In this document: positions 25,956 to 26,738 of the stretch, piece after piece
How positions within the stretch are numbered: position 1 is the first letter of the stretch
Layout: each line of letters opens with the position of its first letter
Source of the DNA: Nitrosomonas mobilis
GTDB lineage: Bacteria; Pseudomonadota; Gammaproteobacteria; Burkholderiales; Nitrosomonadaceae
Direction: 5' to 3'
DNA length: 64,000 nucleotides
Assembly: GCF_900103035.1 (NCBI RefSeq)
Contig: NZ_FMWO01000045.1
Coordinates: forward strand, 1-64,000
Program-made: the position numbers and the translations under genes
The notes under the pieces: generated by a model
What the model was told of the DNA's origin: nothing
What the model saw: only the letters and a program-made list of their open reading frames with translations
Database searches by the model: none

Positions 25956-26621
25956 ATGACAAACGTACTGTTTAGTAAAGCTGAATTCTATACCACAGTA
26001 AATCATTTACGTGATTTGCCCAAGGAACCGGGAGTAGAAATTGCTTTTGCCGGCCGATCAAATGCAGGTAAATCCAGCGCAATCAATACACTGGCTGGCA
26101 GAGGACGTTTTGCTTTTGTCAGCAAAACACCAGGACGAACGCAGCATATTAATTTTTTCCAGCTGGGCACACGGCGTTTTATCGTTGACTTACCAGGTTA
26201 TGGTTATGCGAAGGTGCCGCTGGCTATCCGACAACACTGGACAGAGTTACTGAGCAGATATTTACAAACCCGTGAGACATTATTTGGCATGGTTCTGATT
26301 ATGGATATTCGCCATCCGATCATGCCACTTGACGTGCAAATGCTTGAGTGGTTTGCACTGACTAAAAAACCGGTACATATCCTGTTGAGCAAGGCAGATA
26401 AAATTAATCGAAGCAAGGCTGCCGAAACACTGCGTCTTGTTAGAAACTATCTGGCGGCGCACCAAATTGCGGGAAGCGCACAAATCTTTTCCAGCATGAC
26501 ATCGGAGGGGAAAGACGAAGCCATATTGTTACTGGCGAACTGGCTGGAGAGCGGAGAACAGGCGTTACAAATGGCCGATACAGAAACCGGGCAAAAAAAA
26601 TCCCCGGTCAAAGGGGATTAA
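25956..26621 (+). CDS. ysxC: Ribosome-associated GTPase EngB/YsxC (YihA)
   Basis: This essential GTPase assists assembly of the large ribosomal subunit. The 221-residue protein has G1 [10 protein letters not shown]2/switch region [14 protein letters not shown]3 [12 protein letters not shown]4 LLSKADK and G5 SSMTSEG. The length is normal. Its last codons overlap a hairpin and A8 stretch which, read on the opposite strand, is a strong terminator for a candidate sRNA. Confidence 0.95.
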
Positions 26622-26628
26622 ACCGGGG
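26593..26628 (-). terminator. Rho-independent terminator, minus strand
   Basis: On the minus strand CCCCGGT (26628-26622) pairs with ACCGGGG (26608-26602), then an A and eight T residues (26600-26593). The plus strand has no T-tract after the stem, so the terminator serves minus-strand transcription. It overlaps the 3' end of ysxC. Confidence 0.8.
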
Positions 26629-26703
26629 AAAATCGCCTTGCTCAAAAGAGCCTTGTTCTCGTCTCAGGGAGGTAAGACGAGAAACCGTCACTACATTTAA
26701 CAC
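26593..26703 (-). ncRNA. Candidate small RNA between ysxC and hemB
   Basis: Read leftward on the minus strand, the segment has a 7-bp hairpin CTCGTCT/AGACGAG (26681-26658), a GCTC-TTTT-GAGC hairpin (26651-26640) and a strong terminator (26628-26593). It is preceded by a sigmaE-like promoter at 26738-26711. The predicted transcript is about 110 nt. The site next to engB/yihA matches where enterobacteria carry Spot 42 and pseudomonads carry the sigma22-dependent sRNA ErsA, which is the established knowledge behind this call. There is no transcript evidence here. Confidence 0.5.
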
Positions 26704-26710
26704 TCCCTAA

Positions 26711-26738
26711 TAAGAGAGACGAATACGTAAAAAGTTCC
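26711..26738 (-). promoter_or_regulatory. SigmaE-like promoter for the candidate sRNA
   Basis: On the minus strand GGAACTT (26738-26732) equals the sigmaE -35 consensus. After 16 bp comes TCTTA (26715-26711), close to the TCAAA/TCTGA -10 of ECF sigma factors. A start about 7 bp further on would begin the predicted RNA near 26703. Confidence 0.45.

Follow-up and report, generated by a model that had tools for sequence, protein, structure and literature searches.

A predicted anti-hemB family small RNA between engB and hemB in Nitrosomonas mobilis and its relation to ErsA and sX13

Introduction

What may be transcribed from the minus strand between engB and hemB in Nitrosomonas mobilis? The window analysed here, a stretch of 64,000 nucleotides (contig NZ_FMWO01000045.1, positions 1 to 64,000), contains two plus-strand reading frames which, judging by their protein families, we take to be engB/ysxC (25956–26621) and hemB, the gene of porphobilinogen synthase (26785–27789). 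Direct reading of the minus strand between them, from 26738 to 26593, gives a promoter motif, two hairpins, of which the first is strong and the second weak, and a terminator with T8. From these signals the original prediction derived a candidate sigma-E-controlled small RNA and, from its position beside engB/ysxC, a possible betaproteobacterial counterpart of Spot 42 and ErsA. Among the open-licence literature searched, no title on Nitrosomonas small RNAs was found in the portions available, and nothing was found on a small RNA with hemB and engB.

Our explanation, which we hold to be probable, is that the locus makes a trans-acting RNA of about 110 nt, started by RpoE, which belongs to the anti-hemB family and with its C-rich loops would block G-rich ribosome-binding sites. 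It rests here on the anatomy of the RNA, on conservation with pair-preserving changes, on family likeness as measured by score, and on the co-conservation of the promoter.

Results

Anatomy of the predicted RNA

The promoter comprises a sigma-E-type −35 element, GGAACTT (26732–26738), and, 16 nt from it, a −10 element, TCTTA (26711–26715); both were read directly on the minus strand at 26738–26711, as had been predicted. Transcription would start at about 26705, some 6 nt past the −10 element, which gives an RNA of about 110 nt (26593–26705, minus strand), recognised by Rfam cmscan and by our own covariance models.

Hairpin 1 (26656–26683, minus strand) has nine Watson-Crick pairs and a C-rich, anti-Shine-Dalgarno-like loop, UACCUCCCUG, which presents CCUCCC. 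The fold places hairpin 2, GCUC-UUUU-GAGC, at 26640–26651 on the same strand; with four pairs it is weak, and many relatives carry a longer stem in its place in the alignment, for example CCUUAA-GUGAUA-UUAAGG. The terminator (26593–26629, minus strand) consists of a stem at 26629–26601 with UCCCCUUU in its loop, presenting UCCCC, and of T8 at 26600–26593. Hence, of the two hairpins and the strong T8 terminator that had been proposed, hairpin 1 and the terminator are borne out, and the second hairpin is present but weak. Folded alone, the stretch 26708–26592 has −37.9 kcal/mol (z −2.30; 4 of 200 shuffles were equally good), and its T run ranks second among the 35 minus-strand T6 sites of the window by the fold energy of the preceding 35 nt. 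The terminator region (26593–26629) could also adopt two mutually exclusive stems, an inner and an outer one, because the conserved CCCC of the loop can pair with the 3' GGGG as well.

Organisation of the locus

By its coordinates the RNA is convergent with engB, with its final 29 nt antisense to the end of that gene, and its 5' end is divergent from hemB, which it does not overlap. An antisense RNA to hemB was thus ruled out by orientation. The position beside engB/ysxC, on which the original prediction had relied, was confirmed and is kept widely: engB and hemB flank the RNA in all 30 family loci fetched by blastn (the window locus included), and both are present at 17 of 19 order loci outside the family, one of the others having hemB only and one (L089) neither. 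Of the 28 class-search loci checked, L122 being from the window's own order, 21 had engB or polA within the flanks covered; hemB was found beside the RNA in none of the class loci, and polA often was. In L021 (G064) an insertion of about 1 kb splits hemB from the RNA, which is still present with a TGAACTT promoter (by eye); judged by eye from its inverted ends, the insertion is perhaps a mobile element.

The overlap raises the alternative of an element acting in cis, either on engB, whose end it covers in antisense, or on hemB, through the antisense control to which the name anti-hemB points. The accessible part of a review lists hemB as the predicted target of Bc7 and notes a likeness of this RNA to RybB (PMC6321483), and from the Rfam name we infer Bc7 to be the anti-hemB RNA. 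The start pointing away from hemB argues against such a role, as do the class loci without hemB, the distance between engB and the RNA, which varies across loci from almost none to several hundred nt and once reaches 1.6 kb, and the fact that loops and stems are the conserved parts, not the overlap. We regard action in cis as very unlikely, and a trans-acting RNA as the preferred reading.

Conservation and spread

A blastn search over 125 family genomes matched 38, and 30 loci were fetched. The resulting alignment A1 holds 30 of 31 rows (L004 left out), with 30 copies from 28 loci and L030 not caught; alignment A2 keeps 23 of these rows, near-duplicates being left out. Invariant in all 30 aligned copies are GAACT of the −35 element, TC of the −10 element, the hairpin-1 loop CCTCCCT and the terminator loop TCCCCTT. 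With a hand-written structure, A2 showed two-sided changes at 9 of 22 pairs, with 89.5% of the cells pairing; in hairpin 1, changes on both sides were found at 6 of 8 pairs (23 sequences). None of 500 shuffles reached the observed number of pairs, number of cells, percentage paired or covariation score, and a fifth measure, further pair types, was not above the shuffles (410 of 500 as high). In the 72-sequence alignment of the wider model R2 (see below), which had been fitted to the structure, 20 of 20 pairs had two-sided changes and 0 of 500 shuffles were as high on all five measures.

A covariance model, R1, was built from the transcribed part only, the window sequence included. It scores 82.2 bits at 26594–26698 of the window and matches 112 of the 125 family genomes, or 93 of 99 good ones. 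Beyond the family it matches 259 of 399 order genomes, in 114 of 158 genera, and, with weaker scores, 90 of 369 class genomes, 87 of them outside the order. No match to the RNA was found in plasmid records. The conservation of promoter and hairpins in other Nitrosomonadaceae, on which the original prediction had been made to depend, was found, both in the aligned rows (30/30) and across the genomes; the nearest named EngB is that of Nitrosomonas sp. Nm132. This conservation implies that the RNA is more than a chance arrangement, and judged from sequence this locus is very probably the gene of a real regulatory small RNA.

Some loci carry the RNA in tandem. Three copies, each with its own TGAACTA promoter, stand in L008 (G018, 1448–2116), four copies in L126/L311 (G680) and in L316, and two copies each in L319, L322, G094 C17 and G114 C2. 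Several further family and order genomes have two or three R1 matches.

The strong terminator where engB and the RNA converge might also be nothing but the conserved terminator of a neighbouring gene, devoid of RNA function. We give this reading hardly any credence: the T run and the promoter belong to the minus strand, on which no recognised gene has its end close by; hairpin 1, outside the terminator, accounts for 6 of the 9 pairs that show two-sided changes; the three tandem copies of L008 each have a promoter of their own; and the Burkholderia member of the family was seen on Northern blots, as reported in the accessible part of PMC5688073. A functional small RNA is accordingly the reading followed below.

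Probable membership in the anti-hemB family

At the curated cut-offs, Rfam returned only two tRNAs in the window. In E-value mode, cmscan aligned the RNA over the full length (1–81) of RF02837 with 46.7 bits (E 7.6e-8), the curated cut-off being 49.5, and RF02837 was found in all 16 order loci scanned, at 63.1–81.3 bits and always above the cut-off. By these scores the window RNA is very probably a member of this known family, missed by the Rfam cut-off by about 3 bits. As it is already catalogued, it is not a new RNA; the betaproteobacterial counterpart that had been suspected does exist, but under the names anti-hemB and ncS04.

RF02837 is described in Rfam as "anti-hemB", Burkholderia RNA 7. 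According to the parts of the published work available, ncS04 of Burkholderia cenocepacia is the anti-hemB RNA, has 105 nt, is detected on Northern blots and lies between BCAL0264 and BCAL0265 in the same relative orientation as in the window (PMC5688073); it is also reported there to co-purify with Hfq (PMC5688073, PMC4603805). The window RNA has the same hairpin with a CCUCCC loop, the same kind of terminator and the place between hemB and engB shared by the 17 of 19 order loci. It differs in that its score lies under the curated cut-off, hairpin 2 is reduced, and its promoter reads GGAACTT against GAAACTT in Paraburkholderia and Pandoraea loci (L240, L268; by eye).

Promoter and probable sigma-E control

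Taken by itself, the promoter motif is no evidence and was dropped as such: GGAACT-N15-17-TCTNA is not enriched, with 6 sites genome-wide against 24 for the reversed pattern, and the remaining five sites each lie inside an open reading frame of 242–665 codons, on either strand. Its association with the RNA is another matter. The order loci carry GAACT-N16-19-TC[AT]x[AT] upstream of the RNA in 16 of 18 cases and the class loci in 15 of 27 (base shuffles, 0.4% and 0.2%); this pattern was drawn up with the class loci already in view, and L096 is missing from the count. Several loci missing the pattern carry GGAACTT with a slightly different −10 element, and among the relatives in the alignment the −10 element occurs as TCTTA, TCATA, TCACA, TCTCA and TCTTT. 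A looser pattern fits 24 of 39 R2 matches at named engB loci (no control); the loci it misses include those of Paraburkholderia, Pandoraea and Cupriavidus, which have AAACTT and TCATA (by eye). In L097, L101 and L117 the RNA copies are without GGAACT and have a sigma-70-like sequence instead (by eye), likely a change of control in one gamma lineage.

The genome itself encodes one RpoE above the family cut-off and two further proteins that match the RpoE model weakly, at 37.3 and 28.7 bits. The rpoE gene is followed by what are presumably rseA- and mucD-like genes. Of 29 genomes of the genus, 22 have [GT]GAACT-N15-19-TC.. within 350 nt upstream of rpoE (shuffles, 2%; the out-of-frame L222 taken as a miss, the partial L226 left out). 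The motif takes the form TGAACT with a −10 element that is mostly GTCTTT, and 13 of the 22 lie at 167–175 nt. The genome under study is one of the 7 of 29 in which no such motif was found in these 350 nt. The motif before rpoE (L198–L225) is likely a self-controlled rpoE promoter, which fits the known self-control of this gene. Since the RNA of beta- and gammaproteobacteria comes with a GAACT/TC promoter and a motif of this kind stands before rpoE in most genomes of the genus, sigma-E control of the RNA, as originally predicted, is well supported by inference.

Alternatively, the conserved and expressed family RNA may be read by another ECF sigma factor, or by several, and not be an envelope-stress RNA here. 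The two additional weak RpoE-model matches would be consistent with this, as would the variable −10 element, the rpoE of this genome without the motif, and the three loci with sigma-70-like sequences. In B. cenocepacia, moreover, ncS04 did not differ significantly under any of the seven conditions in Table 2, and brief exposure to stresses, among them SDS, for the most part failed to induce the small RNAs tested, as given in the available part of that report (PMC5688073). The alternative is opposed by the motif upstream of rpoE in most genomes of the genus, and by ErsA, which has a like promoter (by eye) and is reported, in the accessible part of PMC8395346, to depend on sigma-22 in Pseudomonas. 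We consider control by other sigma factors unlikely, though less so than the two alternatives above, and retain RpoE as the candidate.

Relation to ErsA, sX13 and Spot 42

A second covariance model, R2, was made from 70 chosen loci with 72 beta and gamma copies, including the window sequence. True ErsA and sX13 loci were kept out of its training set, which did contain intermediates scoring below the threshold, among them L126, L127, L137 and L146. On the window RNA it scores 74 bits, the next best place in the window reaching 12.5. Searched against 80 named engB loci (EngB stretches used: 16 of 23, one trimmed), it gave 39 matches (E up to 0.1) in 38 loci, 24 of which were in the model, and left 42 loci without a match; all 39 lie downstream of engB on the opposite strand.

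R2 also finds ErsA in three loci, at the places marked by Rfam, with 26.5, 26.1 and 23.1–23.7 bits (E 1.7e-4 to 4e-6); RF01719 itself scores 121, 117.5 and 90 bits there. It likewise finds sX13 in three loci, with 27.2, 26.3 and 21.9 bits, where Rfam gives 103–125. The best R2 score in 71 loci not chosen for engB was 14.6 bits; other terminators in the ErsA search reach 17.1 bits, the E-values being rough. The ErsA score comes largely from the terminator hairpin, and hairpin 1 aligns poorly. Because R2 finds ErsA and sX13 loci that were held out of the model, a shared ancestry of the window RNA with ErsA of Pseudomonas is supported, and with sX13 of Xanthomonas it is probable.

In the other direction, the Rfam models of these RNAs gave nothing at the locus itself: RF01719 (ErsA) had no match in the window locus at E 1 or in the genome at E 0.1, and RF02232 (sX13) none in the window locus at E 1 or in the genome at E 0.01. 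Among the 20 class loci scanned, some of those matched by RF02837 also weakly match, at the same spot, RF02232 (up to 39.5 bits) and RF01719 (30.3 bits). In L126, with its four copies in tandem beside engB, one copy reaches 48.3 bits for sX13 (cut-off 50), and another 41.8 bits for anti-hemB and 37.1 bits for ErsA. The ErsA model, run on the 369 class genomes at E up to 0.1, marks 52 places, of which 18 overlap R1 places and 34 do not.

In two Pseudomonas records ErsA is found downstream of engB, on the other strand, and in a third locus it follows polA (L125, by eye). It resembles the window RNA in its GAACT...TCA/TCATA promoter, C-rich loops and terminator, but is without a clear CCUCCCU hairpin 1; its known targets are algC, oprD and amrZ. 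The sX13 RNA of Xanthomonadaceae adjoins polA in three loci and has GAACC...TCTATA upstream in L307 (by eye). Its sequence outside the loops differs from that of the window RNA. In the accessible text of the sX13 paper, this RNA forms three stems with C-rich loops and works without Hfq in Xanthomonas, and Spot 42 and alpha-r7 RNAs are also located at polA (PMC3771888).

Spot 42 had been named together with ErsA in the original prediction. RF00021 had no match in the window, nor in the window locus at E 1. In two Shewanella records Spot 42 occupies the same place and strand beside engB, without a GGAACT promoter in L304; R2 gave 17.7–17.8 and 14.3 bits there, about the level of other terminators, and homology was dropped for this reason. 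On this evidence Spot 42 shares the place only, and the part of the prediction that stands is ErsA as a remote relative.

The alphaproteobacterial family RF02344 (ar14) gives weak matches to the same RNA in L102, L126 and L262 (38–40.5 bits, E 4e-4 to 2e-3), which may point to relatives outside the class.

Discussion

These comparisons suggest an old RNA of the envelope-stress type, related to ErsA, of which the window RNA would be the local form. Going further, we lean towards a single ancient superfamily of anti-hemB, ErsA and sX13 in the ancestor of beta- and gammaproteobacteria, controlled by sigma-E, with C-rich loops and located at polA/hemB-engB. It would have multiplied in tandem several times and changed its promoter in at least one lineage, and Spot 42 could have descended from it with extensive rewiring, or have taken its place at this locus. 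In the accessible portions of the open-licence literature searched, no statement relating anti-hemB to ErsA or sX13 was found.

As to its action, we propose the following course of events. Upon envelope stress, RpoE (sigma-E) would be released from RseA and start the RNA at GGAACTT-N16-TCTTA. The transcript would end at its own terminator, with a U tail of the kind that Hfq usually binds; judging by the Burkholderia member, Hfq would bind here too. Hairpin 1, through its C-rich loop, and perhaps the terminator loop, through its CCCC, would then pair in trans with G-rich ribosome-binding sites on several mRNAs and prevent these from being translated, as sX13 and ErsA lead us to expect.

The invariant CCUCCCU loop is complementary to GGGAGG ribosome-binding sites. 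In the genome under study, CAGGGAGG-N2-11-ATG occurs at 13 sites and in the control at 1, an excess that a Shine-Dalgarno-like site would be expected to show. Two of the 13, presumably flgC and ftsA, look like real starts. A conserved target was sought by eye and no gene was common with G016, G034 and G107 (30 of 45 sites fetched; open reading frames of at least 60 codons).

Related RNAs provide the analogy. For sX13 to repress mRNAs that carry G-rich motifs close to the start codon, its C-rich loops are required; compensating mutations made in this RNA and in its targets failed to bring control back, so that direct pairing is unproven even for sX13 (PMC3771888, available part). ErsA represses algC at its ribosome-binding site with Hfq (PMC8395346, PMC6321483) and activates amrZ without Hfq (PMC5819304), as stated in the accessible parts of these papers. 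By analogy, the window RNA should repress several mRNAs in trans.

With this assignment, ammonia-oxidising bacteria gain a named, testable small RNA. A little-characterised Burkholderia family is tied to well-studied regulators of envelope stress and virulence, and through this tie findings on ErsA and sX13 can be transferred and tested. If the common origin is true, an envelope-stress RNA would have stayed at one locus across much of the beta- and gammaproteobacteria, and why Spot 42 and ErsA occupy the same place would become directly testable.
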